From a virus, in IMG/VR virus record IMGVR_UViG_3300037560_000145, positions 1 to 44,687 of that record: a stretch of DNA of 44,687 nt; one strand, 5' to 3'. The position numbers were made by a program, and so were the translations under genes. Positions 1-12,087 of the stretch are shown one piece after another. The first letter of the stretch is position 1. Every line of letters begins with the position of its first letter. The notes beneath the pieces were generated by a model, which was not told where the DNA came from, did no database searches, and worked only from the letters and a program-made list of their open reading frames with translations.

Positions 1-127
1 AATACACAAGCTGTCGTCTGCAATTAAAGATGCCGGGCACGGCGACATAGCTGATATGGTTCACAAGTTACACGTTAAGCGAGAAAGAAGAAATGATATG
101 GTTCTTCGCGCATTAAGGGATATACAG
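1..127. repeat. Terminal direct repeat, left copy (circular closure overlap)
   Basis: These 127 bases are identical to 44561-44687. The reading frame of the gene starting at 44523 continues without a break from the right copy into 128-358, so the two ends are the same locus in a circle of 44,560 bp. A length of exactly 127 equals a widely used maximum assembly k-mer, so I infer an assembly overlap and not a packaging end. Confidence 0.95.
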
Positions 128-358
128 GACAATATGAAAATTGATAAAAGCCTTGTTGAGAATTTATCTGCTGGGTTCCCTGGCGACGATCCAAGGGGTC
201 ACCGGGAAGCGCACGAGGCTTGGATTCAAAGGGAAATGCTAAACAAAGAGTTAAAGAAATCAATCATCGATAAAAGTCTGGTGGCACTTATCTGGGCTGT
301 GCTGGCGTTTATAGCAAAATCCGTGTGGGAAAACGTTAAAAATATAACACCACTATAA
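1..358 (+). CDS. Small membrane-anchored late protein, 3' part (gene crosses the circle join)
   Basis: This is the distal part of a gene that begins at GTG 44523; joined, it encodes 131 residues and ends with TAA at 356-358. The N-terminal half is charged and helical; a GHREAHE-type segment follows near the middle, and a single hydrophobic helix (about residues 107-120, ALIWAVLAF) lies close to the C-terminus. Small phage proteins with a polar helical body and one C-terminal membrane helix often sit in lysis cassettes, and this one directly follows other membrane proteins at 43920-44547. A holin-accessory or membrane-anchor role is inference; I do not recognise a named family. Confidence 0.85.
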   Translation, partial: IHKLSSAIKDAGHGDIADMVHKLHVKRERRNDMVLRALRDIQDNMKIDKSLVENLSAGFPGDDPRGHREAHEAWIQREMLNKELKKSIIDKSLVALIWAVLAFIAKSVWENVKNITPL

Positions 359-586
359 ACTAAAATACCTCCATTCCTTTTGTTTAATTAAACTGTGGTT
401 TTATGCAATTTGACCTCGTATTGAATCGCCGGCCTTTACTTTCAATGAGCCCAAAAAAATATTCGGGGGAGACTCAAGAAAAGCATTGCACACTTTAAGT
501 ATATTAGACCACTGCATATCCTTTAAGGAGTGCCGCCGAAGCAGCTTGGCGAATCCCCCTGATGATCATCAATCTTAGCAGTAAAT
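359..586. other. Convergent intergenic region between late and left-arm operons
   Basis: Rightward late genes end at 358 and leftward genes end at 587, so transcripts converge here. I see no open reading frame with a ribosome site, no tRNA arms and no clean hairpin followed by a T-run; an imperfect inverted repeat around 533-552 is the only structure. It may terminate transcription in a way I cannot see by eye. Confidence 0.4.
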
Positions 587-718
587 TCATTTCTCGTTCT
601 CATACGGCGCCGTTATCGGGTGTTTAATATCCGTATCCGGTGCATGCATTACAGAGAATATAATAACAAATATAGCAAAACAGATCGCTGCTGCAATTGT
701 TGGTGTGTGCTTCGTCAT
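587..718 (-). CDS. 43-residue single-pass membrane protein
   Basis: The chosen start is ATG 718 because GAGG lies about 7 bases upstream and the start overlaps the stop of the upstream gene (ATGA). The product has a short polar N-terminus, one hydrophobic helix (about residues 8-24, AAAICFAIFVIIFSVM) and a polar tail. It is the last gene of the leftward operon, translationally coupled to the gene at 715. No family is recognised; together with its neighbour it could form a small membrane pair, but this is only context. Confidence 0.5.
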   Translation of the reverse strand: MTKHTPTIAAAICFAIFVIIFSVMHAPDTDIKHPITAPYENEK

Positions 719-885
719 GGCTGCCTCATTTCCTTGCAATCCTCTTTCGCCAAATCGCATAAAATATAAACTGGCAGGCACGGTGGATTAATTATTGACC
801 GGTAATACTCGATACTGAATAGACCGGCGCATGTGCAGATGGTTATGATTATGCATTGGGCGGCGAATTTAAACACTAAATTCAT
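715..885 (-). CDS. Small membrane protein downstream of thymidylate synthase
   Basis: Starting at ATG 885 it gives 56 residues with an N-terminal hydrophobic helix ([17 protein letters not shown]) and a cysteine-containing tail ([17 protein letters not shown]). An alternative ATG at 909 adds eight residues; neither has a strong ribosome site, so the start is uncertain. The gene overlaps the end of the thymidylate synthase gene (stop 869) and its own stop overlaps the next start, which suggests coupled translation. Function unknown. The paired cysteines after the helix could form a disulfide if the tail is periplasmic, but this is speculation. Confidence 0.45.
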
Positions 886-1720
886 ACTTAATGGCTGGGT
901 GATGTTCATATCCGACCAGTTCGAAGTCGTCCACTGTTACCCATGTTTCTAAATCCTCCAGAGACTTAATATCCGGATTTATTTTTAGTGTCGGTGACGG
1001 CATCGGCTCCCGCACGAGCTGAATGTCTCGTAATGTCTCCAGTTGGTCCTCGTAAATATGAGCATTCACGATCTTATGAAAGGCCTTGGCAGGCTTTAAC
1101 CCAGTGATTTGAGCCATGATCATTAGCAGCCAACCCACTTGCACCTGATTAAAACCATGACCCAAGGGAAGGTCGTCTGATCGCTGGTAGGACGTTAGAT
1201 ACAACTCGTCGCCGAGGATGCTAAACGTGTGCGTATGCATACAGGAATTTAGACATGCGCGATCGCGTTCGCCGGGATTCATAAAAGTCATAATCTCGCT
1301 ACGGTTATCGACGCCCCGGCGAAGGTCTTCATATACGCTGCCTAGCTGGTCGATCGATTCATTTTCAGGATTGCGCCAATCTCGACCTTGGGCTCCATAG
1401 CAACGCCCCATATCATCTTCACCATTACGGAAAGGGTTGGCGAGCCAAGCGGCGCTATCATTGGCGTTCGCATTCCATGTATTGCAGCCTATAGCTCGAA
1501 ACTGAGCGGCGCTGGTATAACCACGGAGATAGCCAAGCATTTCAGCGATTGCGGGCTTCCAGAACAGCTTTTTGGTAGTCAGCACTGGTAAGGTTCCGTC
1601 GCTGACATCATATTCGAGGTCTGCATTAATGACCGTCAGGCATCGCTTTCCGGTACGCTTATTTTCAACCCATTCGCCGCTTTCGATAACCCTTCGGCAC
1701 AACTCAATGTATTGCTTCAT
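869..1720 (-). CDS. thyA: Thymidylate synthase (ThyA type)
   Basis: Converts dUMP to dTMP using methylenetetrahydrofolate, supplying thymidine for phage DNA. The 283-residue length fits the family. Visible landmarks are the nucleophile Cys160 in LNSCMHTH, the phosphate-binding YQRSDD segment (Arg180), and GHGFNQ with Asn191, the asparagine that favours dUMP over dCMP. In bacterial ThyA the phosphate-binding motif is usually RSCD; here the Cys is Asp (RSDD). GGAG lies upstream of ATG 1720, and this start overlaps the stop of the DUF3310 gene. It sits in a leftward operon with other phage nucleotide and DNA genes. Asn191 argues against a hydroxymethylase; whether dUMP is the only substrate cannot be read from sequence. 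Confidence 0.93.
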
Positions 1721-1935
1721 TTTTTGTTCTCCAATTGTGTAATTTCACGATCCAGATACCATCTGGCTTTTTTTAAATCTTCGAGTGTGTTTTTCTTTTT
1801 ACCTGCCCTGGCAATATATTTGACGGTGTTGCCAAGACAGAAACCCAGCTCTAAAGCCTCAATTATTTTGATGGCCTCGTAAGGGTTGTTTTCGCCGCCA
1901 TAATGATCAGGGTGATTCACCGCTTCTTTTTTCAT
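1717..1935 (-). CDS. DUF3310 (SaV-like) nucleotide-associated protein
   Basis: This 72-residue protein shows the DUF3310 signature in order: VNHPDHYGG near the N-terminus, [10 protein letters not shown], then [14 protein letters not shown] and [10 protein letters not shown]. The family is common in phages, often next to thymidylate synthase or other nucleotide genes; its exact activity is not established, and distant relation to MazG-like helical folds has been suggested. Its stop overlaps the thyA start, so the two are likely made together. The assignment rests on motif recognition and is firm; function is only contextual. Confidence 0.85.
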
Positions 1936-2132
1936 TTCTCAAACTCCATCGCTTTGTAATAAAGGTTCTTCCAGATTTCCACATCGTCTGGACCTTCCTC
2001 AGTAATACACCGGCCATCCTTCACTAGTGATACGAAAAGGCATTTCTTCCCGTCGATTCGATAGTGGTTCATTCCACATATTGACCACTTATCTAACGGA
2101 TGCTGTTTCCATGCTGGTGTTGATTGGTGCAT
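1932..2132 (-). CDS. Hypothetical protein, 66 residues
   Basis: A small soluble protein rich in Trp, Cys and charged residues (WSICGMNHYRIDG, then [20 protein letters not shown]). It overlaps both neighbours by a few bases: its stop lies in the DUF3310 start, and its start at 2132 touches the stop of the DUF7220 gene, so it belongs to the operon. No family recognised. Confidence 0.6.
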   Translation of the reverse strand: MHQSTPAWKQHPLDKWSICGMNHYRIDGKKCLFVSLVKDGRCITEEGPDDVEIWKNLYYKAMEFEK

Positions 2133-2395
2133 TATTCCGACCTCAATTTATTTATTAATTTTGCCGCAATAGCCATTGCCACACGATGCAGTCCCGCATT
2201 AAACCATCGCCTTATTGAGTACGATCTTGCCAAGGATATTGCAGTATAAAGAATGCCTAGCTGTATGTTTTGGCCAAACGAAATACTCCATCCAAAAAGC
2301 GGAAATAAAAGCATGTTTGCCGTAAAATTTATAGAGAATCCGATTAAAATATTTATCAGCGCCTCGACTAATGACTCAATCTTTGTTTGTTGCAT
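2132..2395 (-). CDS. DUF7220-like membrane protein
   Basis: An 87-residue protein with an early helix (SLVEALINILIGFSINF), a hydrophobic hairpin through LLFPLFGWSISF and ILYTAISLARSYSIRRWF. The LVEA...GF...N.. / FPLFG / AISLARSYxxRRxF pattern is that of a small phage membrane-protein family (DUF7220) of unknown role, often found beside methyltransferase or nucleotide genes. The C-terminal tail is basic. It overlaps the stop of the gene at 1932 and starts where the methyltransferase ends. Identification is from memory of the pattern. Confidence 0.7.
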   Translation of the reverse strand: MQQTKIESLVEALINILIGFSINFTANMLLFPLFGWSISFGQNIQLGILYTAISLARSYSIRRWFNAGLHRVAMAIAAKLINKLRSE

Positions 2396-3018
2396 TAGAA
2401 TAAACTCTCCTGAGCTGTCTCACTGTCAAAACGGGCCATCATCGACTTAAAATAATCCTCATCTAGCTCGCATCCCACAAAGTCAAAGCCGCCGTAGTGA
2501 GCCGCTATTGCGCTGGAGCCGCTTCCAAGGTGGGTATCAAGTATACGGTCGCCTTCTTTGGCGTAGTTGGATAATAACCAGTCGTAGAGCTTTACAGGTT
2601 TTTGAGTTGGATGGATTTTGCCTTTGTCTGCATTGTGCTGGTGTATGCTGTATCGAAATACTTTTGCAGGCTTCTTGAGACCCATACTTACCCATGCGTA
2701 TTCAGCACTTGCGAAGTTATCAACTGTTTGCTGTTTATCCCATATGCAAAAATACTCGCTTGGTGGCATATTGAAATTATTGGCTCCCCACACAATTTGA
2801 TTACTGCTTATTCTAAATAGGTGATTCCAATATTCTTCTGTTGGAGCGTTGTTGTTCCATAATGTGTTGGTTGTTTTTATCGTATGCCTATCGTTTTTCC
2901 CTATTCCGTTCTTAAATCTTGCCAAGTTGTACGGAGGATCAACTATCGCAAGCTCAAAGGCATTATCATCAAGCCCTTTCATGTATTCCATGCAGTCGAT
3001 GTTTAGTAGCTCAATCAT
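2395..3018 (-). CDS. Site-specific DNA methyltransferase (N6-adenine/N4-cytosine, beta class)
   Basis: Transfers a methyl group from S-adenosylmethionine to an exocyclic amino group in DNA, probably to shield phage DNA from restriction. The catalytic DPPY motif is at residues 27-30; the SAM-binding motif (DTHLGSGSSAI, then VGCELD) follows at about 161-186. This motif order is the beta class. The middle (about 85-125) is the probable target-recognition segment. The protein has 207 residues and ends in QESLF (203-207), which fits the consensus of the beta sliding clamp-binding peptide. The stop overlaps neither gene's catalytic part; the start at 3018 overlaps the stop of the upstream gene (ATGA). 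Target sequence cannot be predicted. Confidence 0.9.
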   Translation of the reverse strand: MIELLNIDCMEYMKGLDDNAFELAIVDPPYNLARFKNGIGKNDRHTIKTTNTLWNNNAPTEEYWNHLFRISSNQIVWGANNFNMPPSEYFCIWDKQQTVDNFASAEYAWVSMGLKKPAKVFRYSIHQHNADKGKIHPTQKPVKLYDWLLSNYAKEGDRILDTHLGSGSSAIAAHYGGFDFVGCELDEDYFKSMMARFDSETAQESLF

Positions 3019-3491
3019 TTTAAATCCACCGTCACAGCATCAGACCATTTCGACTCAAGACCATCAGTATCGATAGCTCTAACCCTGCACACCGTAGGAC
3101 CGCTTTTAAGGCCGCTCACAGCGTATTGAGTGATATCCGACCCAACGGGATAGATAATACCGTCGCAATCAAGCTCATAGCGTAATATCTCGTCAGGATT
3201 GAGTATTGTGCCGTCTTCTCTGGCTGTCGGGATTTCCCAGGAAACAGTTATCGAAAATACTTCAGATTCGCAAACTCTCTCGATATATTTCCCAGTCAGC
3301 ACCATGTCAGATATCTGGCCGCTACCCTGCTTATACTTCGATGTCATGACAAGATCCACACCATGAGGGCAAGGTAGGATGCTGTTAACCAGCTTTTCGA
3401 TAGAAACGTGCAAAGATGTATGGGTAGTGGGTTCTTGCGCTGGTGCGGCAATAGGGAGTGATAGAATGACGTATATTGCTATGTTCTTCAT
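3015..3491 (-). CDS. Secreted fibronectin type III-like protein
   Basis: The 158-residue product starts with a Sec signal (MKNIAIYVILSLPIAAPAQ, probable cleavage after AxA near residue 18). The C-terminal half reads like a fibronectin type III domain: a beta-strand pattern with SVSWEIPT-type core, RYELDCDG, and TVCRVRAIDTDGLESKWSDAVTV. The gene lies between a methyltransferase and small hypotheticals in the leftward (non-structural) operon, so it is probably a periplasmic or surface protein made in the infected cell rather than a virion part. Four cysteines may form disulfides. Role unknown; superinfection exclusion is one possibility. Confidence 0.6.
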   Translation of the reverse strand: MKNIAIYVILSLPIAAPAQEPTTHTSLHVSIEKLVNSILPCPHGVDLVMTSKYKQGSGQISDMVLTGKYIERVCESEVFSITVSWEIPTAREDGTILNPDEILRYELDCDGIIYPVGSDITQYAVSGLKSGPTVCRVRAIDTDGLESKWSDAVTVDLK

Positions 3492-3492
3492 G

Positions 3493-3696
3493 TTAATTAC
3501 GCTCCGGTTTTTCCGCTTCTAGTTCGTTGTAAACATCAATAACCGTATTGTCGTTGTACTCGGCACCAGCGGCCACACGTTCTGCTGTGACGGCCCAAGC
3601 TTTCATCCATTCGTCACTACTGCCGCCACCATAATATCCTTCTGAATATAGTTCATTGCATAACTGAATCATGTTTTCTCTTATTGAGCCGCTCAC
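3493..3696 (-). CDS. Hypothetical protein, 67 residues
   Basis: A small acidic protein with a Gly-rich stretch (YYGGGSSDEW) between two helical parts. Its start at 3696 overlaps the stop of the gene at 3693, consistent with operon coupling. No recognised family or membrane segment. Confidence 0.6.
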   Translation of the reverse strand: MSGSIRENMIQLCNELYSEGYYGGGSSDEWMKAWAVTAERVAAGAEYNDNTVIDVYNELEAEKPERN

Positions 3697-3911
3697 CTCT
3701 TCCTCCTAATAAAATCTTTCTGTCTTGATCGTGCAAATTCGTGAAGCCATGCTTCTCGGTATGGCGATTTGCCATAAGGACAATGCGACACATCGCGGGA
3801 TAGCCTGGCATGTATCCAGCAATCTGTGAAAGGATTGCGTCGGAGCTTCTGCTCTGGTCTACGCAGAAACTTCGGAATGCCCAGGTATTCTTGATCGGCG
3901 CTGTCAGTCAT
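3693..3911 (-). CDS. Hypothetical basic protein, 72 residues
   Basis: The start is placed at ATG 3911, which overlaps the stop of the YopX gene (ATGA); a longer upstream extension would run inside that gene. The product is rich in Arg and Lys with two cysteines (FTDCWIHARLSRDVSHCPYG) and a basic tail ending in DFIRRKR. The composition would suit nucleic-acid binding, but no family is recognised. Confidence 0.55.
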   Translation of the reverse strand: MTDSADQEYLGIPKFLRRPEQKLRRNPFTDCWIHARLSRDVSHCPYGKSPYREAWLHEFARSRQKDFIRRKR

Positions 3912-4288
3912 TTTACTAATTCTGGGTTTTCGTGGATATTGCCGATTACCTCCAGCCAATGGTTAACATTAAATGGATAAATGATAATACCTGTCTCGTT
4001 ATCCTTAAAGCACAGGCAAGGACTTCCCATCCAATAGCGAACGACTACTGTTTCTGTAGCACCTATCTGGCCGTGACCATTATCTAGTGCAGTTGTTTTT
4101 ATTACATCGCCTTCATAAATCTCATTGCCACTCCTGTCGGTTAGTCCAGTGAATTGCATAGCAATATGGTGGTCATTTCTAAAGATCGAAGAAAAGTAAC
4201 CCTCGGCCTCCCATACCTCTTGTACTTCTTCCCATGAAGACATGAATTTCGATTCGATATCCCAGTCTCTAAATTTAATATCTCGCAT
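3908..4288 (-). CDS. YopX family protein
   Basis: ATG 4288 is preferred over the more upstream start at 4330 because GGGAG lies just upstream and the N-terminus then begins MRDIKFRDWD, the usual opening of YopX proteins. Further signatures are MQFTGLTDRSGNEIYEGDVIK, and VIGNIHENPEL at the C-terminus. The 126-residue length is typical. YopX proteins are frequent in phages and prophages of many bacteria and have no settled function; the beta-barrel core is thought to be oligomeric. Neighbours are small hypotheticals in the leftward operon. Confidence 0.88.
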   Translation of the reverse strand: MRDIKFRDWDIESKFMSSWEEVQEVWEAEGYFSSIFRNDHHIAMQFTGLTDRSGNEIYEGDVIKTTALDNGHGQIGATETVVVRYWMGSPCLCFKDNETGIIIYPFNVNHWLEVIGNIHENPELVK

Positions 4289-4351
4289 ATTATTCTCCCA
4301 ATTAGTCAGTCCAGTATGGCACCTAACCACCGGTGCAACATTACCAACAGA

Positions 4352-4573
4352 TTACAAATTCTTTAAGATATTAACGCTTGGCCATATATTTTCAGCGAGG
4401 TGCTTGTGGAATTTTTCGCTAATTGGCTGGATTGTCGTCATTCCGATATCAAAATCCACTTGCACGTCAAACTTCACAGTCAGGGCGTTGAATCTGTCTG
4501 CTATCTTCTGTAAATCCGAAAGAGATTGTGTTCTCGCTGTTTTCAGATCATCTTTTAGCTGTTCGATATCCAT
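4352..4573 (-). CDS. Hypothetical helical protein, 73 residues
   Basis: ATG 4573 follows AAGGTGA at a good distance; the GTG at 4582 overlaps that ribosome site and is unlikely. The N-terminal half (DIEQLKDDLKTARTQSLSDLQKIADRFNAL) is a predicted helix or short coiled coil, followed by a mixed segment. No family recognised. Confidence 0.55.
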   Translation of the reverse strand: MDIEQLKDDLKTARTQSLSDLQKIADRFNALTVKFDVQVDFDIGMTTIQPISEKFHKHLAENIWPSVNILKNL

Positions 4574-4587
4574 GTTATTCACCTTAT

Positions 4588-4938
4588 CTATGATTTATCG
4601 GGTACTGGAATCCAGTGGGTCATAGCGCCGAAAGGCTCATCCTTATCCCAAACTTCATCCCACACACCATGGGCTCCAGCCTCGTTTTCATGACAATAAG
4701 CAAAGCCCACAATCTTCTGGCCATGTTCTGGCTGCTGATCTTTAATACTTCTCCAGCCCGGGGCTGCGCGTTTATTCCACGCACTAACGGTGTAATCTTG
4801 AGTCATATCACCACTATCGCCGCTATTAACTTCAGCGCCACAGCTTACAGTGTCAGTGCAAATAACCATGTTCGGCGCAAACAGTTTGGCTGGCTTCCCG
4901 CAAAATGGGCAATTCTTAAGTTCTGGTGCATCGCTCAT
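4588..4938 (-). CDS. Lar-like zinc-binding domain fused to DUF551
   Basis: ATG 4938 has AAGGAG just upstream and starts MSDAPELKNCPFCG, so the upstream extension to 4983 is dropped. Residues about 8-52 form a Lar-type (restriction alleviation) zinc ribbon: CPFCG, a second cysteine pair (CTDTVSCGAEV), ending AWNKR. Residues about 60-115 match DUF551 (WRSIKDQQPEHGQKIVGF ... THWIPVPD). Such fusions are frequent in phages. Lar of the Rac prophage modulates type I restriction in E. coli; whether this protein does is inference. It lies downstream of a 426-bp non-coding gap. Confidence 0.82.
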   Translation of the reverse strand: MSDAPELKNCPFCGKPAKLFAPNMVICTDTVSCGAEVNSGDSGDMTQDYTVSAWNKRAAPGWRSIKDQQPEHGQKIVGFAYCHENEAGAHGVWDEVWDKDEPFGAMTHWIPVPDKS

Positions 4939-5233
4939 ATCATTCTCCTTAATTAACAGTGACAAGTACCCCACTATCCACACCTTGGTAAGTTACTACT
5001 TAACTGCTCTACAGGCTTTACCAGATAGCTGATCCACACCTCTCTTTCGAGACTATCACCAGACTGTTACCGTCCAATTAGTGATAGCAGGTCGGCTATT
5101 AACCGCCATATTTGTGGCCATGTTGTCAGGGGTTAAGACATTGCATGGACTTCCAGGTCTATTTGCGTTTTGTCCAGTGTCAAAAAATACTGCATTAAAT
5201 GAACTGGGCTATTTGGGTGTAACATCAACGAGA

Positions 5234-5262
5234 TTGACAAACATGATAAACAATTGAATAAT
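5234..5262 (+). promoter_or_regulatory. Rightward sigma70-type promoter inside the leftward operon
   Basis: TTGACA at 5234-5239, a 17-base spacer, and AATAAT at 5257-5262: six of six at -35 and five of six at -10. An inverted repeat CAATT-GAAT-AATTG (5251-5264) covers the -10 and could be an operator. Expected start is near 5269. It points against the flanking genes. Confidence 0.65.
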
Positions 5263-5268
5263 TGTCCC

Positions 5269-5320
5269 CGTTGGATTCTTTAACCGGCCTAGAGTTAGCG
5301 CTCAATGATGGCCGGTTTTC
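5269..5320 (+). ncRNA. Candidate short regulatory RNA
   Basis: Inferred from a strong promoter (5234-5262) followed within about 60 bases by an intrinsic terminator (5282-5320). The resulting RNA would be roughly 50 nt, with no room for a gene. It is transcribed opposite to the surrounding operon, so it would be antisense to the leader of the Lar/DUF551 gene transcript, in the manner of lambda OOP RNA. No sequence family recognised. Confidence 0.4.
5282..5320 (+). terminator. Intrinsic terminator, rightward
   Basis: Eight-base perfect stem AACCGGCC (5282-5289) with GGCCGGTT (5310-5317), a 20-base loop, and the T-run at its end (TTTTC). On the minus strand the stem is followed by AAAG, so it should act mainly rightward, against the flanking genes. 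Confidence 0.6.
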
Positions 5321-5364
5321 TATTTATACACCCATGACAAATAATTGCAAACCTGTTTTACCGA

Positions 5365-5631
5365 TTAATCAGCCGCTTCCTTATCGGGAATTGGTATTAA
5401 GTCGGGGGATAATTTAACGATGGTATATTTATCCGCAGTCAGCTTGCCGCGAGTACTGGCATACAGGTCTCCGTAAAACCCATCGTTCTCCATCGCAATA
5501 ATTACACCCTTCTCTCCGACAAGTTTTACCATGCCCTCCCATCGCTCAGAAATAGTAAACTCTCCCATATAAATATCATTAAGAGTTATGTCCATCGTCT
5601 CGAGCTTTTTTACTTCCATTTTTATTTCCAC
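5365..5631 (-). CDS. Hypothetical protein, 88 residues
   Basis: The GTG at 5631 has GGAG six bases upstream, which favours it over the ATG at 5619. The product is a mixed alpha/beta acidic protein (EFTISERWEGMVKLVGEKGVIIAMENDG) without cysteines or membrane segments. It is the last gene before the 426-bp gap and follows the DUF1364 gene by 12 bases. No family recognised. Confidence 0.6.
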   Translation of the reverse strand: MEIKMEVKKLETMDITLNDIYMGEFTISERWEGMVKLVGEKGVIIAMENDGFYGDLYASTRGKLTADKYTIVKLSPDLIPIPDKEAAD

Positions 5632-5643
5632 TTTACTCTCCAG

Positions 5644-5937
5644 TTATTTAATTGTAACAAGCCCTGTTTCAATCCAGTGAGCCCAGGTTCTTTTCAGTGC
5701 GCGTAGTTTAATTTGTTCAATCTCGATCGGTTCAATATCTGTTTGAAGCCTGCCATCTATAACGTCATGACACCGGTTACAGCCAAACGCAGCTATGTGA
5801 TCATCTTCTTTTTGACCCATGCCAGAATCAACATTTATGTGGCATAGAATCGTTGTTTCGGGATTGCCGTTACAGTATGGAAATATCTGCAAGTGGCAAT
5901 CTTGACCTCTGGCACTGTTTCGGAGCTTTTTAGTCAT
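5644..5937 (-). CDS. DUF1364 zinc-binding HNH-like protein
   Basis: This 97-residue protein carries the DUF1364 pattern: RNSARGQDC near the start, a CxxH-type middle (TTILCHINVDSGMGQKEDD), then FGCNRCHDVIDGR and a helical end with KLRALKRTW. The conserved Cys and His residues suggest a metal-binding, HNH-related fold; the family lies in lambdoid nin-like regions beside NinB, exactly as here (next gene at 5944). A nuclease role in recombination is commonly proposed but not proven. Confidence 0.85.
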   Translation of the reverse strand: MTKKLRNSARGQDCHLQIFPYCNGNPETTILCHINVDSGMGQKEDDHIAAFGCNRCHDVIDGRLQTDIEPIEIEQIKLRALKRTWAHWIETGLVTIK

Positions 5938-5943
5938 AAATCC

Positions 5944-6396
5944 TCAATACGGGTTGTCCAATATCATGCTGAAGTCACACCCGAGCTCGGTATATTTCTT
6001 AATCACCAAGTCGATGTATTCGCGACACTGCCGAATCCCCATGCATGACGTTACAGGGAATTCAAGCGGCGGGAGCATGAGTGATAATTTTATATCGTAA
6101 TCAAGACCTATGATCACCTGCATATATTTATGATTATAATCAACGTTGTCTCGACGCATTATAGGAACGCCGTGGTGTAACTTACACTCAGCCCTGGCTT
6201 GATCAATGTCGCCGCCGTAAAGCTGGTGCCCGATACGTGAGTAAAGCTCAAAGGTCATTTTGCGCTGGTCTTCCGACATATTTCTACCCACCCTCCAGCT
6301 AAACGTGACCTCTTCATTTTCCTCTGCGACCTTCGTGGCCCGGGCAATAAATCCAGTCAGTGTGCGGGCGTCGGTTACTTTCCATGTTTCGGACAC
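5944..6396 (-). CDS. NinB-like recombination protein
   Basis: NinB (Orf) of lambda binds single-stranded DNA and SSB and can substitute for RecFOR in phage recombination. This 150-residue protein matches the layout: an N-terminal strand-rich part, a core with GRNMSEDQRKMTFELYSRIGHQL, CKLHHGVPIMRRD, and a C-terminal PVTSCMGIRQCREYIDLVIKKYTELG. The position beside DUF1364 and downstream of the ERF, exonuclease and ATPase block supports a recombination role. Sequence similarity to lambda NinB itself is weak by eye, so the family call is moderate. Confidence 0.6.
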   Translation of the reverse strand: MSETWKVTDARTLTGFIARATKVAEENEEVTFSWRVGRNMSEDQRKMTFELYSRIGHQLYGGDIDQARAECKLHHGVPIMRRDNVDYNHKYMQVIIGLDYDIKLSLMLPPLEFPVTSCMGIRQCREYIDLVIKKYTELGCDFSMILDNPY

Positions 6397-6405
6397 GGTT
6401 ATTCC

Positions 6406-6777
6406 TTAGCATTCATGCATGATTACACGGGTTATCTTGTAGTATTTGTGCCAGAAAACATCTTCCCACTCTCCAGATTCTTCAAGCGTGACCGAAGTAG
6501 ATCCTTCCTTCGGCAAAATATCAAAATCCAAATCGTTTTCGATGCATTCTTTTATTAGCGAAATATCATCAACGCCACCGATCGGAGTTAAATCCAGAGC
6601 CCCGATAAACGAACAGATATAAATGCTATATTCGCCCTCTGAAGCATTGCAGCCTGATTCGGTACTGATGACAACCTGCACGGTGTTTATTTCCCTGTCT
6701 TCGATATTCTCCCTTACGATTTCGATATCATTATCAAGCGGCGCGTGAAACGGCTCGTTAAAATCTTCTTCGCACAT
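6406..6777 (-). CDS. Hypothetical acidic protein, 123 residues
   Basis: Strongly acidic (EEDFNEPF, DNDIEIVRENIEDREI, CIENDLDFDILPKEG) with several cysteines and no membrane segment. Such acidity would suit a DNA mimic or a partner of a basic protein, but no family is recognised. It is the first gene after the leftward terminator at 6794-6812, so it may have a lower or separately controlled expression. The stop is ten bases from the NinB-like start. Confidence 0.6.
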   Translation of the reverse strand: MCEEDFNEPFHAPLDNDIEIVRENIEDREINTVQVVISTESGCNASEGEYSIYICSFIGALDLTPIGGVDDISLIKECIENDLDFDILPKEGSTSVTLEESGEWEDVFWHKYYKITRVIMHEC

Positions 6778-6793
6778 GATTATTACCTTAGTT

Positions 6794-6814
6794 AAAAAGG
6801 CCCCCGAAGGGGCA
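6794..6814 (-). terminator. Intrinsic terminator, leftward, after the recombination block
   Basis: Read on the minus strand: GCCCC-TTC-GGGGGC followed by CTTTTTAAC. The tight five-base GC stem, short loop and T5 run make a good intrinsic terminator directly after the ATPase gene (stop 6828). It would separate the recombination genes from the downstream NinB/DUF1364 genes unless there is antitermination. Confidence 0.7.
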
Positions 6815-6827
6815 AGACCTGCGTTAT

Positions 6828-8108
6828 TTAAGCTTGATATTTACCGTCAACAATTACAATTTCCTGCGGCTCGACATCGTTGCGGCTAACCCGGGTAGAC
6901 AATACCTGAATGCCTTCGCCGTTGAATAAGCCCTGGAGTTTTATGAAATCGTCTTTTGACATCGATTCAACACCATCCATACGAACCACTTTGAGCGGAT
7001 GAGCCTTGATATCCTCGATCGCCAGCGCCGCACATACCAGCATTTGTTCAGACTCGCCGAGATTGGAAAGGTGGCAATCATTATAAATCACGTTACCCTC
7101 TTCAATCGTTAATCCAGGTATTGGCCATGCTGCGGACTCGAGAGCTTTGTTTTTAATCTCGACCAACTCCCTGACATCCGCGTCCGCTTTCCGGTGAGCC
7201 TCAACCGCATCATCATGGCGATTCGATTGATCCAGCCAGTTTTTATGGGTCAACGCTTTCTCATTGGTCAACTGGGAATTATTTATCTGCACGGTGATAT
7301 CATCCGTATTTTCGTCGACCAAAGCGGCAACCGTTTTATTTCCGGTTTTTATTCTTTCATCCAACTCGGTATATTTTGCTTTTGCCGCGTTTAGCTCGCC
7401 TTCTTTTTCTATCAATTCCTTGTTAAGTGATTTGATGTCATCCATCGCCTCGTTTATCTGTTCCTGGTGATCGTCTACTTGCGACACAAGACCATCGAGG
7501 AAATCGCGTTTTTTCTGATTGGCGGTATTGGCTACCTGCATTTCGTCACGCTTTGCAATCAGTTCGGTAATATCAACGGAGTCAACTTTTTCAGGCTCAT
7601 CGCCGACCTTCAGTAACTCAGCCTTTCGGTGTAAATCGAGTCTATTTACAGACAACGATTCAATCCTGTTTTCCGTTTCATCCAGGTTGATATCAATTTT
7701 TGCAGACTTTAATAGTGTTTCGGCCTGCGCCTTCGGTTTCAGATTCATTATCTGGTGGGGATTAACCGATAAGTCGCTAATCATTTTTTTGAAATCGGCT
7801 GCCGTAATCGATGTCTTTTTACCTTTTTCGTCAATGGCCGTGAGAGTGACATTAGACCCGCTGGGAGTGGTTCTGCGTTCAGCATATATGGTTTTGCTAC
7901 CGTCGCTCAAAGTCACGGCTATGGTGCCTTTCTTCTCGCCGTGGCGCAGCATATCACTACGCTTTGAGAGAATGTCGTGAAGCGCGGTGATGGCAGTGGT
8001 TTTTCCGGTACCGGTGCCGCCAGACATTTCCAGGTTATTGCCGTTCAACGCCACATCAAAGCATTCGATGACACCGGTGTTTACTATTTGAATTGAGGTT
8101 ATTTGCAT
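6828..8108 (-). CDS. SMC/RecF-like AAA ATPase of the recombination block
   Basis: A 426-residue protein with a Walker A loop GTGTGKTT at residues 31-38 after an N-terminal strand-rich start (ITSIQIVNTGVIECFDV), a long predicted coiled coil (about 150-310, rich in KEL, EKEGEL, KAKYTELDERI), then a C-terminal ATPase lobe with LGESEQMLVCAALAI (signature-like) and VVRMDGVESM (Walker B-like region). This is the layout of RecF/SbcC/SMC-type ATPases, but smaller. It is the gene after the exonuclease, with two bases between them. A role in DNA end processing or loading with the exonuclease and ERF protein is inferred from context. Confidence 0.8.
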   Translation of the reverse strand: MQITSIQIVNTGVIECFDVALNGNNLEMSGGTGTGKTTAITALHDILSKRSDMLRHGEKKGTIAVTLSDGSKTIYAERRTTPSGSNVTLTAIDEKGKKTSITAADFKKMISDLSVNPHQIMNLKPKAQAETLLKSAKIDINLDETENRIESLSVNRLDLHRKAELLKVGDEPEKVDSVDITELIAKRDEMQVANTANQKKRDFLDGLVSQVDDHQEQINEAMDDIKSLNKELIEKEGELNAAKAKYTELDERIKTGNKTVAALVDENTDDITVQINNSQLTNEKALTHKNWLDQSNRHDDAVEAHRKADADVRELVEIKNKALESAAWPIPGLTIEEGNVIYNDCHLSNLGESEQMLVCAALAIEDIKAHPLKVVRMDGVESMSKDDFIKLQGLFNGEGIQVLSTRVSRNDVEPQEIVIVDGKYQA

Positions 8109-8110
8109 TT

Positions 8111-8749
8111 TTATTTCTCCAGAGTGGATTTGTATTCTTCGACCAGGTTGTTAAAATCAAGCAACTCGACCTCCATTGCATCAATGAAACTGTCATCACG
8201 CTCAACACGGATTATGGTTAATTCTTTTCCAATCAGTTTTAATGCAGGGCAATATAAAACGAAGTCTGACCACTTGCGGCCGGTGATCCATAGTTGGCCT
8301 TGCACTTGATCTTCGCAGCTCGATACATCGCCATCTAACAAAATTGGCATTAATGACTTAGGACTGATAAAGCACTTGTATTCAGAGCTGCCGTCATCGC
8401 CAATCAAGCCGTCAGCACTGGCGCCAAACAATCTATCTTCGGTGAAAACTATGCCGGTTTGTTCTATCAGCATTCCAATTTTCTGCTCATGGAGAAACCT
8501 AGCATCTGGCTCCAGATCTCTACCCCGGCGCATTTCAAAGGTTTCAAACTTGTCCTCGTCGAGCTGTACACCGCTTATTCTTTCAATAGCCAATCTGAAA
8601 GCATATTCTTTTGCCTTCGCGGTGAAGTCGCCTTTGTTAGCACCAGACTTTAATCGCTTTCGGCATTCCCCGAAATTACTGGCTGTTATCGATCCAGAGC
8701 GTTCTAGAAACCATTCTGGGCTACCTTGTTCACATTCTATTATTAACAT
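8111..8749 (-). CDS. YqaJ/lambda-type exonuclease
   Basis: Degrades one strand of double-stranded DNA to leave a 3' tail for the annealing protein. ATG 8749 is the start because AGGAGG lies at 8755-8760 and the protein then begins MLIIECEQGSPEWFLERSGSIT, the usual opening of YqaJ nucleases; the longer frame to 8932 overlaps the HNH gene and is not needed. Key motifs: ITASNFG, GASADGLIG with the catalytic Asp, SSEYKC (E-x-K), QVQGQLWITGRKWSDFVLYCP. Length 212 residues is typical. The ribosome site and first residues lie inside the end of the HNH gene. It pairs with the ERF protein at 9260. Confidence 0.9.
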   Translation of the reverse strand: MLIIECEQGSPEWFLERSGSITASNFGECRKRLKSGANKGDFTAKAKEYAFRLAIERISGVQLDEDKFETFEMRRGRDLEPDARFLHEQKIGMLIEQTGIVFTEDRLFGASADGLIGDDGSSEYKCFISPKSLMPILLDGDVSSCEDQVQGQLWITGRKWSDFVLYCPALKLIGKELTIIRVERDDSFIDAMEVELLDFNNLVEEYKSTLEK

Positions 8750-9257
8750 GTTGACCTCCTTGAAGGCTGTATGTGTTGATGGGGCGTTTGTTTCTTTGCT
8801 GTTCTGACCTTGTCGACCATTTGCAATTAGACTTGCAATACCCTTTGTTGTTGTCTTTTCTGTCAATAGAGTGATCTTCGGAAGGCCTGCAGCCAACGTC
8901 ATTAATGAAATTTTCAAAAGAAAACCATTCACTGCATACCACTATCCCTCTACCGCCGTAATCACTAAAACGAGCATTGTTTTTGTTACAGCACCTTTGG
9001 ATTATTCCAGCCCAAACTCGATACTCTGGTGTTTTACTTAATCCGTGCGTTGTTTTTCTTTTAATATCAGCGCATCCACACGACTTTGTCTTTCCGTATG
9101 AGAGAGATATCCCGAGAGCTTCAGTTTCATTCCCACAGGAACATATACACTTCCAAAATCTGCGAAAAACGCCACAATATTTTTTTGATACAGAAAATTC
9201 AACAACAGTAAGTTGGCCAAATATCAATCCCCTAAGATCTACTTTTGTTCCAGTCAT
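8730..9257 (-). CDS. HNH endonuclease, probably free-standing homing type
   Basis: Starts best at ATG 9257, right after the ERF stop (9260); an upstream frame to 9296 overlaps ERF. The N-terminus (KVDLRGLIFGQLTVVEF, then WKCICSCGNE and KTKSCGCAD) is a zinc-binding DNA-recognition part; the C-terminal HNH region shows HGLSKTPEYRVWAGIIQRC, FSDYGGRGIVVCSEW, SIDRKDNNKGY, NCKWSTRSEQQRNKR. This class is common as mobile endonucleases in phages. It sits between ERF and exonuclease, genes that are normally adjacent, so I infer an insertion. Its 3' end covers the exonuclease ribosome site and start. Confidence 0.85.
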   Translation of the reverse strand: MTGTKVDLRGLIFGQLTVVEFSVSKKYCGVFRRFWKCICSCGNETEALGISLSYGKTKSCGCADIKRKTTHGLSKTPEYRVWAGIIQRCCNKNNARFSDYGGRGIVVCSEWFSFENFINDVGCRPSEDHSIDRKDNNKGYCKSNCKWSTRSEQQRNKRPINTYSLQGGQHVNNRM

Positions 9258-9259
9258 AG

Positions 9260-10012
9260 TTATTTTTCCATTAGTGACTGTAGGTGGTTCATGCACGGTG
9301 CGTATCGGGACACCAATAATTTATCAATGGAGGGTATACCTGCCTTTTTACAAATGTACTTCTCATCCTTACCAACCGATTTAGCTGCACCGATCAGTTG
9401 TTTGATATCTTTCTCTGTCACAAAAAGAGGCGTGTCTGGCATTTTATTGCCGTCATTGTCTTCGCCGCCGGTGGCAATATTAAGCAGCATGCACAAACAA
9501 TAGCGTTTACCGTAGCTGACGCTCGACCCTATGGCCTGCACATTGTTTTTTGACCCAGACTGGTCGAATGGTAGCCGCATCGTTGTTTGCTCGCTATGGC
9601 CCTGCTTGTGGCTGATAATGCCGATCACATCAAGCATTGATTCGACGAAATTTGTTTTAAATGAAACAGAGAAGCCGAACTTTTTAAGTGATGGCCGTAT
9701 CGATTCGATAATATCCTCGAATTTGGCATATTTACTCCGGAGTTCCCCCTTAACAATTATCTGGCCTTTCTCGTTTATCGTTGGCATTTCGGACTGCATT
9801 TTTGCCATTGCTGAGTTGTAAGCCATTTTCGCATCACGATTAAGCAGTTTTTCATGCATAACCATCATGCGTTCCATTTTGTCGATATCGACTTCAGGAT
9901 TCATCGCTGCCGTGCTGATTATTTGCAGCATTGCCGCTGACTCATTGGCTGGCAATGGCACTGCTACTTCCCTGGATTCTTCTTTGGTTACTAAATTAGT
10001 TTTATCATTCAC
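9260..10012 (-). CDS. ERF-family single-strand annealing protein
   Basis: ERF proteins (P22 Erf) bind single-stranded DNA and anneal homologous strands during phage recombination and circularisation. The 250-residue protein has the family core: AKMQSEMPTINEKG, YAKFEDIIESIRPSLKKFGFSVSF, QGHSEQTTMRLPFDQSGSKNNVQAIGSSVSYGKRYCLCMLLNIATGGEDNDG split over positions about 65-190. The C-terminal part is a helical domain. The cognate exonuclease lies downstream, separated by the HNH gene. The start ATG 10012 has AGAGGG about 11 bases upstream. Confidence 0.9.
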   Translation of the reverse strand: MNDKTNLVTKEESREVAVPLPANESAAMLQIISTAAMNPEVDIDKMERMMVMHEKLLNRDAKMAYNSAMAKMQSEMPTINEKGQIIVKGELRSKYAKFEDIIESIRPSLKKFGFSVSFKTNFVESMLDVIGIISHKQGHSEQTTMRLPFDQSGSKNNVQAIGSSVSYGKRYCLCMLLNIATGGEDNDGNKMPDTPLFVTEKDIKQLIGAAKSVGKDEKYICKKAGIPSIDKLLVSRYAPCMNHLQSLMEK

Positions 10013-10076
10013 GATATTTCCCTCTTATTAAAATCACATTGTATAACGGTAACAGGTGCTCGATTATTAAATATCG

Positions 10077-10472
10077 TTAATCTTCAGGTTGCCGCTCAAA
10101 GTCACAATGCTCTCTGCATTTTGGGCAGATGCCAATACCCTCAAAATCACCTAACGAAGCTCCGCAACAGTTGCTATACTTTTCCTCGCATGGATCAGGC
10201 TTGTATTCGATGGCCAATAGTCGCTGGATTTGTTCATCAAGGTTCTCTGCCTTCAAATGCGCCTCGGCCTGAATCTTAGACTTCTCAGCCTTTAGAATAT
10301 CAATGTGAGCGGTGTTAATGTCGAAGTCTTCAGGGATATCCATAGTGACTTCCATGGAATTAATTGTTATTTCGTCATCATGCTCAAAGGTGGTCATTCT
10401 GTAGACGTACCCATTGTTTTCATAAGATGCAGGCTGCGCTGTTAAGTAAACAGTTTTAGTTATTGATTTCAT
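10077..10472 (-). CDS. Hypothetical protein with C-terminal zinc ribbon
   Basis: 131 residues. A strand-rich N-terminus (TKTVYLTAQPASYENNG), a helical middle (HIDILKAEKSKIQAEAHLKAENLDEQIQRLL), and a C-terminal cysteine cluster (CEEKYSNCCGAS ... GICPKCREHC) that should bind zinc. Similar short zinc-ribbon tails occur in many phage early proteins. Good SD (GGAG) upstream of ATG 10472. No specific function recognised. Confidence 0.6.
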   Translation of the reverse strand: MKSITKTVYLTAQPASYENNGYVYRMTTFEHDDEITINSMEVTMDIPEDFDINTAHIDILKAEKSKIQAEAHLKAENLDEQIQRLLAIEYKPDPCEEKYSNCCGASLGDFEGIGICPKCREHCDFERQPED

Positions 10473-10473
10473 T

Positions 10474-10767
10474 TTATTCTCCAGGTCTTGTTATACAATT
10501 ATCACAAAAATAGCCTTCTTCTCTATCGTTTTGAGATTCAGGCACAAAATTCTTATCGCAGGAAAAGCAGCTAACCTCGGTGTACTCTTTCCAGTATTGA
10601 AATCCGCCGACAGGACCAACCCAACGCCCAGGCTTTCTTTCACTCGGCTCGACCACCTTCTCTGGCTCCATACGCTCGATATCAGCGATAGTATTTAATC
10701 TGGTGCCATTATCGAGATAATCGTTTAATTGATTGTCACGGTAACGCTGCTCGGCTTGGTGGTCCAT
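10474..10767 (-). CDS. Small zinc-finger protein
   Basis: ATG 10767 lies just after the deformylase stop (10769) with GAGAG upstream, so it is preferred to the TTG at 10782. The 97-residue product has a helical N-terminus and a C-terminal CFSCDKNF ... YFCDNCIT four-cysteine ribbon. It overlaps nothing and is followed after one base by the gene at 10472. No family recognised. Confidence 0.55.
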   Translation of the reverse strand: MDHQAEQRYRDNQLNDYLDNGTRLNTIADIERMEPEKVVEPSERKPGRWVGPVGGFQYWKEYTEVSCFSCDKNFVPESQNDREEGYFCDNCITRPGE

Positions 10768-10768
10768 T

Positions 10769-11194
10769 TCATGCGCTCTCAATAGTGATGCCGTTCAAAT
10801 GATCAACTTCGTGCTGAACACATCGTGCGGCAAGCTTGTTTAATTTAAAATGGATAGGGTTCCAGTCTTCGTCGAATCCCTCAACACGGACCTTTTTGCT
10901 GCGAATCTTTAATACGCTAAGTCCAGGGTACGAAAGGCATTCTTCTCGGTTAGTTGTATGACCTCCGAAGCTTCGAGTTATCACGGGGTTAATGATTACC
11001 TGTTTAAATGGCCCGCATTTGATATAGATCACTCTTTTCAATACACCGACCTGGTTGGCAGCAAGCCCTGCGCCACCATATTTTGTGGTCATTGCCTTCA
11101 TGTGAGCAATTAACTCTGATAAGTCCTCTCGGGTATGACATGGAACTGCAGTTTTCGATAGCTCCGGCGACCCCTTAAGCGAAATCTCACCCAT
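10769..11194 (-). CDS. def: Phage peptide deformylase
   Basis: Removes the formyl group from nascent protein N-termini. All three metal-site motifs are present: GAGLAANQ at residues 41-48, EECLS at 84-88 (usual EGCLS, here second Gly is Glu) with ligand Cys86, and HEVDH at 128-132 with both His ligands and the catalytic Glu. The protein has 141 residues and stops soon after motif III, lacking the C-terminal extension of bacterial Def, as reported for other phage deformylases. It overlaps by one base the upstream zinc-finger gene (TAATG). It probably supports fast late protein synthesis; that benefit is inferred. Confidence 0.92.
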   Translation of the reverse strand: MGEISLKGSPELSKTAVPCHTREDLSELIAHMKAMTTKYGGAGLAANQVGVLKRVIYIKCGPFKQVIINPVITRSFGGHTTNREECLSYPGLSVLKIRSKKVRVEGFDEDWNPIHFKLNKLAARCVQHEVDHLNGITIESA

Positions 11195-11400
11195 TATCCC
11201 GCCTCCGAAACAATCGAAACCTTATACTCAAGCTGTGTCCTGGTGCTGATCACGAAAGATTTGCCGCATCCCCGATCGTTGATTAGCTGGCATTGATGGA
11301 CAGTGCCGACATTAAACTCATTCGATATATGGGAAATGGTTACCTGCTTGAGCTGGCCTTGGCCGCAGTGAGGGCACTCTAGGTTGATATTTGCATGCAT
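11194..11400 (-). CDS. Ogr/Delta-like zinc-finger protein
   Basis: 68 residues with CPHCG near the start and QCQLINDRGCGKSF in the second half: the C-x2-C...C-x6-C layout resembles the Ogr/Delta late-transcription activators of P2-type phages, which bind RNA polymerase alpha. It lacks the full RTS motif, so the family is tentative. If correct it could act on the late promoters with good -10 but poor -35 boxes seen at 19468, 20211 and 24369. First gene downstream of a weak leftward terminator (11430-11449). Confidence 0.5.
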   Translation of the reverse strand: MHANINLECPHCGQGQLKQVTISHISNEFNVGTVHQCQLINDRGCGKSFVISTRTQLEYKVSIVSEAG

Positions 11401-11428
11401 TTTGTTATTCCTCGATATTTTCTACTGA

Positions 11429-11449
11429 CAAAGCCCCAATAAAGGGGCT
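11429..11449 (-). terminator. Leftward hairpin (weak terminator or attenuator)
   Basis: Minus strand AGCCCC-TTTATT-GGGGCT followed by only TT and G. The stem is perfect over six bases but the T-run is short, so read-through is expected; it separates the first leftward gene (11469) from the zinc-finger and deformylase genes. Confidence 0.45.
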
Positions 11450-11468
11450 GGTTAGAGCAGATTAGGGG

Positions 11469-11756
11469 TTAAAACAAAAGCTCTCGTATCCGTGAGATTG
11501 AATTATGGGCGGTGTCCAGCTTTTCCCTTATGTGGTCCGGTCCTGCCTCAAGAACATCAGAAAGACTGGGTGATTGTTGATCTGGCTTTGTAGAGGACTC
11601 CGGCGGTGTTCCGGTAATCTGACCAATTAGCTGACAAAGAGCGGAGTTGACAGAATCGACATGCTCAATAGCATTATGCAATTCTGTATGTTTTTCTCCG
11701 CGAACTTTGGCGCCAGCAGCAGTGTTTAATTTAACTTCTTCTTCATATGCAGACAT
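11469..11756 (-). CDS. First leftward early gene, hypothetical, 95 residues
   Basis: Starts at ATG 11756 with GAGG upstream; the longer frame to 11828 runs into the promoter. The product MSAYEEEVKLNTAAGAKVRG... is helical and acidic, with a Ser/Pro/Gln-rich linker in the middle (GTPPESSTKPDQQSPS) and a C-terminal helix ending RELLF. It is the first gene under the leftward promoter, followed by a weak terminator, a position where phages keep regulators. No family recognised. The C-terminal LF is noted with other proteins but lacks the Gln of a clamp-binding motif. Confidence 0.6.
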   Translation of the reverse strand: MSAYEEEVKLNTAAGAKVRGEKHTELHNAIEHVDSVNSALCQLIGQITGTPPESSTKPDQQSPSLSDVLEAGPDHIREKLDTAHNSISRIRELLF

Positions 11757-11796
11757 CTTCTTTTCCTCGTTGTTGTTTATTTGTTTGTGTGAAGTA

Positions 11797-11824
11797 ATAA
11801 TACACGAATTTGTGCTTGCGTCAA
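11797..11824 (-). promoter_or_regulatory. Leftward early promoter
   Basis: On the minus strand: TTGACG (11824-11819), 16-base spacer, TATTAT (11802-11797). Start expected near 11790, leader of about 35 bases to ATG 11756. Its -35 shares bases with the rightward -35 (see 11816-11844), so both promoters may compete. The spacer contains CACGAATTTGTG (11803-11814), a near-palindrome that could be an operator. Confidence 0.65.
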
Positions 11825-11844
11825 ACATTATTATGTATTATATT
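11816..11844 (+). promoter_or_regulatory. Rightward early promoter
   Basis: TTGCGT (11816-11821), 17-base spacer, TATATT (11839-11844). It should start near 11851 and drive the Cro-like gene at 11872. The -35 overlaps that of the leftward promoter in the 9-base element TTGCGTCAA. A perfect palindrome GATTTAAATC (11846-11855) sits at the expected start site, a likely repressor site. Confidence 0.65.
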
Positions 11845-11871
11845 AGATTTAAATCAAACGAGGGATAAAAC

Positions 11872-12087
11872 ATGAGCGATGGTATTTCAACTATTCAGTT
11901 TCTAAAAGAGCTGGAGTCGGCGGTAAAAAAACTAGGCGGTCACATGAAGGCCGCCGAAGAATGGGGCGTTAATCCCTCACAGGTTGGCGGTGCCATTCGT
12001 GGCGAGCGGACGCCGGGGCCAAAGATACTGGCTGCCATGGGATACGAGTCGGTAAAAGCGATTAGGTATCGCTATAGGAAGGTGTGA
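11872..12087 (+). CDS. Cro-like small DNA-binding protein
   Basis: 71 residues, helix-turn-helix pattern in LKELESAVKKLGGHMKAAEEWGVNPSQVGGAIRGERTPGPKILAAMGY: helix 2 (MKAAEEWG), turn, recognition helix (PSQVGGAIRGER), typical of Cro/CopG-size phage regulators that repress their own early promoter. It is the first gene of the rightward arm, directly next to the divergent promoters with palindromic candidate sites. Basic C-terminal tail (IRYRYRKV). Strong SD GAGGGA upstream. Target operators are inferred. Confidence 0.75.
   Translation: MSDGISTIQFLKELESAVKKLGGHMKAAEEWGVNPSQVGGAIRGERTPGPKILAAMGYESVKAIRYRYRKV

Follow-up and report, generated by a model that had tools for sequence, protein, structure and literature searches.

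RNAs of the GOLLD and ROOL type assemble into multimeric RNA cages, and the HK022 putRNA suppresses termination in cis. To our knowledge, few structured phage RNAs show deep covariation, and for several of them, GOLLD and ROOL included, no function is known. GOLLD possesses a conserved 3' region and a variable 5' region, with tRNAs sometimes present in the linker (PMC12286853), and the HK022 putRNAs, located downstream of early promoters, are ~70 nt in length and fold into two stem-loops (PMC9378689). Here, we describe RNA B, a conserved and structured RNA of uncultured viruses that bears comparison to both.

The window analysed is the entire 44,687-nucleotide stretch of the IMG/VR virus record IMGVR_UViG_3300037560_000145. 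The original prediction concerned a block at 5234-5320, read as the promoter and terminator of a ~50-nt small RNA. In the nearest IMG/VR relative, IMGVR_UViG_3300009788_000180 (TerL 95% identical), this promoter-hairpin block has no match, while the adjacent non-coding sequence 4936-5133 is shared at 74% and lies upstream of a different leftward gene; conservation thus pointed away from the block and led to RNA B. A consensus fold of the two copies on the leftward strand had an energy of -40.9 vs -18.9 +- 3.5 for 300 column shuffles; in six pairs both partners differ between the copies, and the only unpaired cell falls in P4. The core model R1 confirmed a third copy located by a DNA pattern (L080/L086, 75 bits), and a second DNA pattern, for the 3' end, furnished eight more loci, all confirmed by R1 with E of 4e-14 to 2.5e-9. 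The homologues L133-L140 scored 45-63 bits with R1, a model built without them; with a model built from them, the 11 homologues gave rough E-values of 3e-41 to 5e-53. The family was defined by a covariance-model match together with conserved Pa, Pb, P1-P3, P5 and CCCC/GGGG, all of which the window possesses. It comprises at least 11 uncultured viruses, a lower bound, with one copy per virus, and the 11 sequences are 61-96% identical (median 70%).

Searches further afield returned little. Among 44 TerL-related and other records R1 detected only G001, also the sole find of the first DNA pattern with rep1. Patterns for the P3 loop yielded one further true locus alongside chance matches that the model rejected, a weak match at L071 resembling coding sequence. 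In 369 genomes of the MAG's class, R2 and R3 (the model of sRNA candidate C, below) returned the already-known MAG and, in a bacterial genome (G110, L142 1300-1381), one weak R2 match of 25 bits, which resembles the Pa/Pb hairpin alone and is probably due to chance. Querying 50,697 phage records with the region by blastn gave nothing meaningful, and RNA B was absent from cultured phage records when five members served as blastn queries. The 88-aa and Lar proteins led to no homologues or distant ones, and ERF to loci lacking the conserved region. Against Rfam 15 (4227 families), the window had no match at gathering and 4850-5400 none at E up to 5; the homologues had weak matches below gathering only, none usable. 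RNA B appears not to have been described before, although its absence from Rfam 15 leaves room for an unindexed earlier description.

Table 1. Coordinates of features at the RNA B locus; positions refer to the window unless a relative is named.
Feature	Position	Strand	Details
RNA B, conserved structured RNA (R2 span)	4967-5158	-	R2 186 bits, E 2e-50, window itself included in model; 11 homologues; covariation; no Rfam match
Core, four-helix junction (P1, P2, P3, P4)	5030-5120	-	R1 106 bits; 13 double-changed pairs
5' hairpin, Pa (CCAUG/CAUGG) and Pb (UGUC/GACA)	5118-5148	-	Loop with CCCC 5132-5129
3' domain, P5, P6 and variable hairpin	4974-5028	-	P5: 5028-5022 with 4980-4974
GGGG, proposed partner of loop CCCC in pseudoknot joining both ends	4969-4972	-	Complementarity only
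Promoter-like element of RNA B	5156-5183	-	TTGACA 5183-5178; 16 nt with AAAACGCAA; TAGACC 5161-5156
Shine-Dalgarno and start codon, Lar_restr_allev gene	4936-4950	-	AAGGAG 4950-4945; start 4938-4936; 30 nt past GGGG
Flagged block, closed domain	5214-5334	-	TGGGTGTA 5214-5221 / TACACCCA 5327-5334; dG -37.2, z -3.56, 1/200
Flagged promoter-like site, TTGACA-17-AATAAT	5234-5262	+	-35 5234-5239; -10 AATAAT 5257-5262; 11/12 consensus
Palindrome ACAATT-GAAT-AATTGT	5250-5265		Spans -10 box of flagged promoter
Flagged hairpin (5282-5317) and T-tract, terminator-like	5282-5325	+	dG -15.7; tail TTCTATTT
sRNA candidate C adjoining RNA B	L131 15153-15282; L133 1433-1561; L135 6801-6924; L138 2389-2511	-; +; -; +	
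sRNA candidate D	L062 about 5342-5530	-	Promoter TTGACA-16-CATAAT 5524-5497; terminator AGGGCTTCGATTCATAAGAGCCCTTTTTT
tRNA-like pieces	L140 about 153-320; L137 upstream of B; L062 about 5100-5270	+;; -	

From these alignments an architecture for RNA B emerges. The RNA is probably ~185 nt long (about 4967-5150), with a transcript start near 5150. A stack of two helices at the 5' end comes first, a four-helix junction and then a stem at the 3' end follow, and the sequences CCCC and GGGG, which match, are invariant. Pa and Pb are 100% paired across the 11 sequences, with double changes at four pairs. Within the junction, P1 pairs 5117-5113 with rep1 (GUGUG), the P3 loop reads GGUAACA, and the P4 loop is GNRA-like. 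P5 is paired in 11/11 sequences, and one of its positions reads C-G, U-A, U-G or A-U. Neither CCCC in the 5' loop nor GGGG at the 3' end varies in any of the 11 sequences, so the two offer complementarity but no covariation; a pseudoknot between them that would join the two ends is plausible. Another pseudoknot, GGUAA/UUACC, was dropped as a general feature because L137 is without the loop.

The structure is borne out by covariation. For the core of the 11 sequences the measure was 0.490 vs 0.180 +- 0.023 (0/500). Aligning the whole RNA with plain MAFFT gave 0.230 vs 0.111 +- 0.013 (0/500), a signal abolished when the pairing partners were shifted by 1-3 columns. The model-fitted alignment (12 rows, the weak L142 included) held 17 double-changed pairs (0/500 shuffles), and, as L135, L136, L140 and L133 are close to one another, the double changes are not all independent. 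Read on the leftward strand, the paired cells included 39 G-U and no A-C, which identifies an RNA of that strand. Direct repeats at 4976-4985 and 5032-5041 (ATCCACACC, also noted as ATCCACACCT) change together in G001 and L138. Separate pairing of the copies in P1 and P5 explains most of this linked change and makes the switch between the two GGUGUGRAU repeats that we had considered unnecessary; the GGUGUG common to both is not accounted for in this way.

The promoter-like element of RNA B is a single site in the window (chance 0.01). A similar element is present in L062, L131, L133, L135, L136 and L140, directly before RNA B except in L131 and L133, where an extra domain intervenes. RNA B and the gene that follows it are on one strand in all 11 viruses, with the start codon 24-47 nt downstream in eight of them and 79-155 nt away in L131, L135 and L137, and no sense terminator was found just after it. 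The genes that follow are unrelated: Lar_restr_allev in the window (Pfam PF14354, E 4e-10), and a DNA methylase, helicases, and unknowns elsewhere. Their functional types (replication, recombination, methylase, anti-restriction) suggest that they are early genes. In translation, the methylase that follows RNA B directly in L136 and L140 (MIELLNTDCMEYMKGL..) has a start that resembles that of a window methylase (MIELLNIDCMEYMKGL..), the gene of which (2395-3018) lies 2 kb downstream of RNA B.

We favour, with a probability of about 0.5, the reading of RNA B as a cis-acting leader RNA of early operons. The intergenic region 4939-5364 would represent a phage non-coding RNA island, with RNA B as its constant part on the leftward strand. 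Transcription would initiate at the promoter-like element and continue into the early genes behind RNA B, Lar in the window. RNA B has a compact fold, the ends of which probably meet via CCCC/GGGG immediately ahead of the ribosome-binding region, and it would most likely control in cis how the operon behind it is transcribed or translated. Two observations weigh against the leader reading: i) the -10 hexamer of the proposed promoter, TAGACC, is poor, and ii) in L131, L135 and L137 the start codons are distant and the genes unrelated, which a stand-alone RNA fits as well.

Such a stand-alone phage RNA, trans-acting or architectural in the manner of GOLLD and ROOL, is a possible but doubtful alternative. 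It would possess a constant 3' part and variable 5' modules, sometimes with tRNA-like pieces, and processing, not a terminator, would free it. Unrelated downstream genes, one copy per virus, and variable upstream domains, some of them tRNA-like, speak for this alternative, and GOLLD likewise combines a conserved 3' with a variable 5' region (PMC12286853). The small size of RNA B, the absence of an Rfam match and of a 3' end signal, and the start codon with a Shine-Dalgarno directly behind RNA B in most members argue against it.

Put-like antitermination, a specific sub-case of cis action, would have the nascent RNA fold just past an early promoter and modify RNA polymerase to pass far terminators, with the identity of the genes irrelevant. 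The promoter-like element directly before RNA B in the window, L062, L135, L136 and L140 fits this mechanism, as does the lack of a conserved downstream gene, the HK022 putRNAs being likewise placed downstream of early promoters (PMC9378689). We nevertheless hold it to be improbable, since strong sense terminators within 5 kb downstream are lacking in the window, L134 and L135 and few elsewhere, and since RNA B is larger than putRNA and differently built. That the conserved region is a DNA-level element, an origin or operator array, as its direct repeats might suggest, is very remote given the 39 G-U and 0 A-C cells and substitutions that leftward-strand pairing explains.

Upstream of RNA B, the island is variable. 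Rightward (divergent) terminators of -15.7 to -17.2 kcal/mol recur there in the window, L131, L133, L135 and L137 (5/11). The divergent sRNA candidate C, ~125 nt long and conserved in sequence among L131, L133, L135 and L138, carries the hairpin GAACCGTA..TACTGT and an intrinsic terminator; the L131 copy had no match to Rfam at gathering. Candidate D, on the sense strand and likewise ending in a terminator, is common to L062, L136 and, partly, L140 (L062 vs L136, 62% identical across 182 nt). Stem-closed domains, termed module A, lie upstream of RNA B in five relatives with z of -4 to -7, their boundaries having been picked on stems. T-arm-like sequence occurs in or near L062, L137, L138 and L140, and the tRNA-like pieces unite a T-arm (GGTTCRAATCC) with an acceptor-like helix (GGGCTAA..TTAGTCCACCA in L140) and are located at the apex of a long stem. 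Beside RNA B, ARAGORN detected no proper tRNA, with one untyped call in L139.

The flagged block is most likely one of these variable modules, either a divergent (rightward) short transcription unit or an insulating terminator, the putative positional counterpart of the divergent sRNAs of the relatives. Its predicted features were all found in place: the near-consensus promoter is exactly as claimed and is the best promoter-like site within 1-12000, the inverted repeat on its -10 box is a palindrome, and the rightward hairpin with its T-tract follows. The hairpin arms, AACCGGCC/GGCCGGTT (5282-5289/5310-5317, 8 bp), enclose a 20-nt loop containing a 4-bp inner stem, and TTTTCTATTT comes next; a simple terminator scan missed the hairpin because it permits loops of <=8 nt. 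Folding 5268-5325 gave dG -16.2 with a z of only -1.74, so the hairpin region alone is unexceptional. A single promoter of >=11/12 in the whole window has a T-tailed stem of >=8 bp in the 60 nt after it, and no such case arose in 40 first-order resampled (shuffled) windows or in 25 intergenic-composition sequences; the pairing is seldom to be expected by chance, by criteria that were fixed after the case had been seen and are fitted to it. A spurious 51-aa frame runs across the block, which is explicable without any ORF.

The original prediction took these features for a free-standing ~50-nt regulatory sRNA gene controlled by a DNA-binding protein, a reading we consider possible but doubtful. 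In its favour are the near-consensus promoter and the terminator-like hairpin 20 nt apart, a pairing seldom expected by chance, and the divergent sRNAs that occupy the same place in relatives. Against it, the sequence is conserved in no relative, the loop sequence was found in none of the genome contigs, compensatory changes in the stem are lacking, and a ~50-nt RNA would be barely more than a terminator hairpin. Nor does the predicted antisense overlap with the Lar/DUF551 leader hold if that leader starts at the conserved leftward promoter 5183-5156, which lies beyond the predicted RNA. What survives of the small-RNA locus is that the region is non-coding and holds many RNA elements, and what survives of the divergent unit is the recurrence of rightward terminators and sRNAs upstream of RNA B; the sequence of the relatives' sRNA is absent from the window by model R3, and the block is not C by sequence.

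As the block also closes as a leftward-strand domain, its hairpins have a second possible reading, in which the 'promoter' and 'terminator' are two arms of one fold, a member of module A. The 8-bp closing stem and a z of -3.74 in a second run (0/300; z -3.5 is reached by 0.3% of 358 background windows) are consistent with this, and L131, L133, L136, L140 and L062 have analogous domains, closed by a stem and in some cases tRNA-like, at -92..-4 to -260..-52. We regard it as rather unlikely, for the boundaries were picked on stems, no sequence is shared, the T-tract is on the + strand, and the + strand folds nearly as well (z -2.87 and -3.10). The preferred reading as a divergent module meets its own difficulty in that the block shares no sequence with the relatives' divergent sRNA and folds well on the other strand.

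Viewed as a whole, the locus suggests, at a little short of even odds, that RNA B represents a new class among phage RNAs. Such an RNA, constant, pseudoknotted and ~185 nt long, would have a promoter of its own, head early operons in diverse viruses and anchor a modular island in which tRNA-like domains and divergent or sense sRNAs are exchanged upstream. The likeness to GOLLD and ROOL is in the phage-borne, highly structured RNA with a pseudoknot (proposed in RNA B), in the lack of a conserved protein neighbour, in the constant 3' and variable 5' parts, and in the association with tRNA-like sequence. RNA B differs in matching no Rfam model, in its ~185 nt vs 600-800 nt, below the ~600 nt that marks those RNAs, and in standing directly before same-strand start codons. 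Like the HK022 putRNA, it is a structured RNA close behind a phage promoter and independent of the downstream genes; its consensus structure contains a four-helix junction, with a pseudoknot proposed to join the ends, and is unlike the ~70-nt pair of stem-loops. The block shares a promoter and terminator-like hairpin with intrinsic-terminator sRNA genes, but the window copy is ~50 nt, unconserved, and without the hairpin of candidate C, and the relatives carry the better divergent sRNA candidate. Differing from leader RNAs and riboswitches in having no conserved downstream gene class, Rfam class, or visible expression platform, RNA B shares their 5' leader position, compact fold, and, in most members, a start codon 24-47 nt downstream. 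With 11 natural variants that carry compensatory changes and a length that puts synthesis, probing and reporter assays within reach, it is a defined object for asking whether phages employ leader RNAs to drive early operons whatever genes follow.
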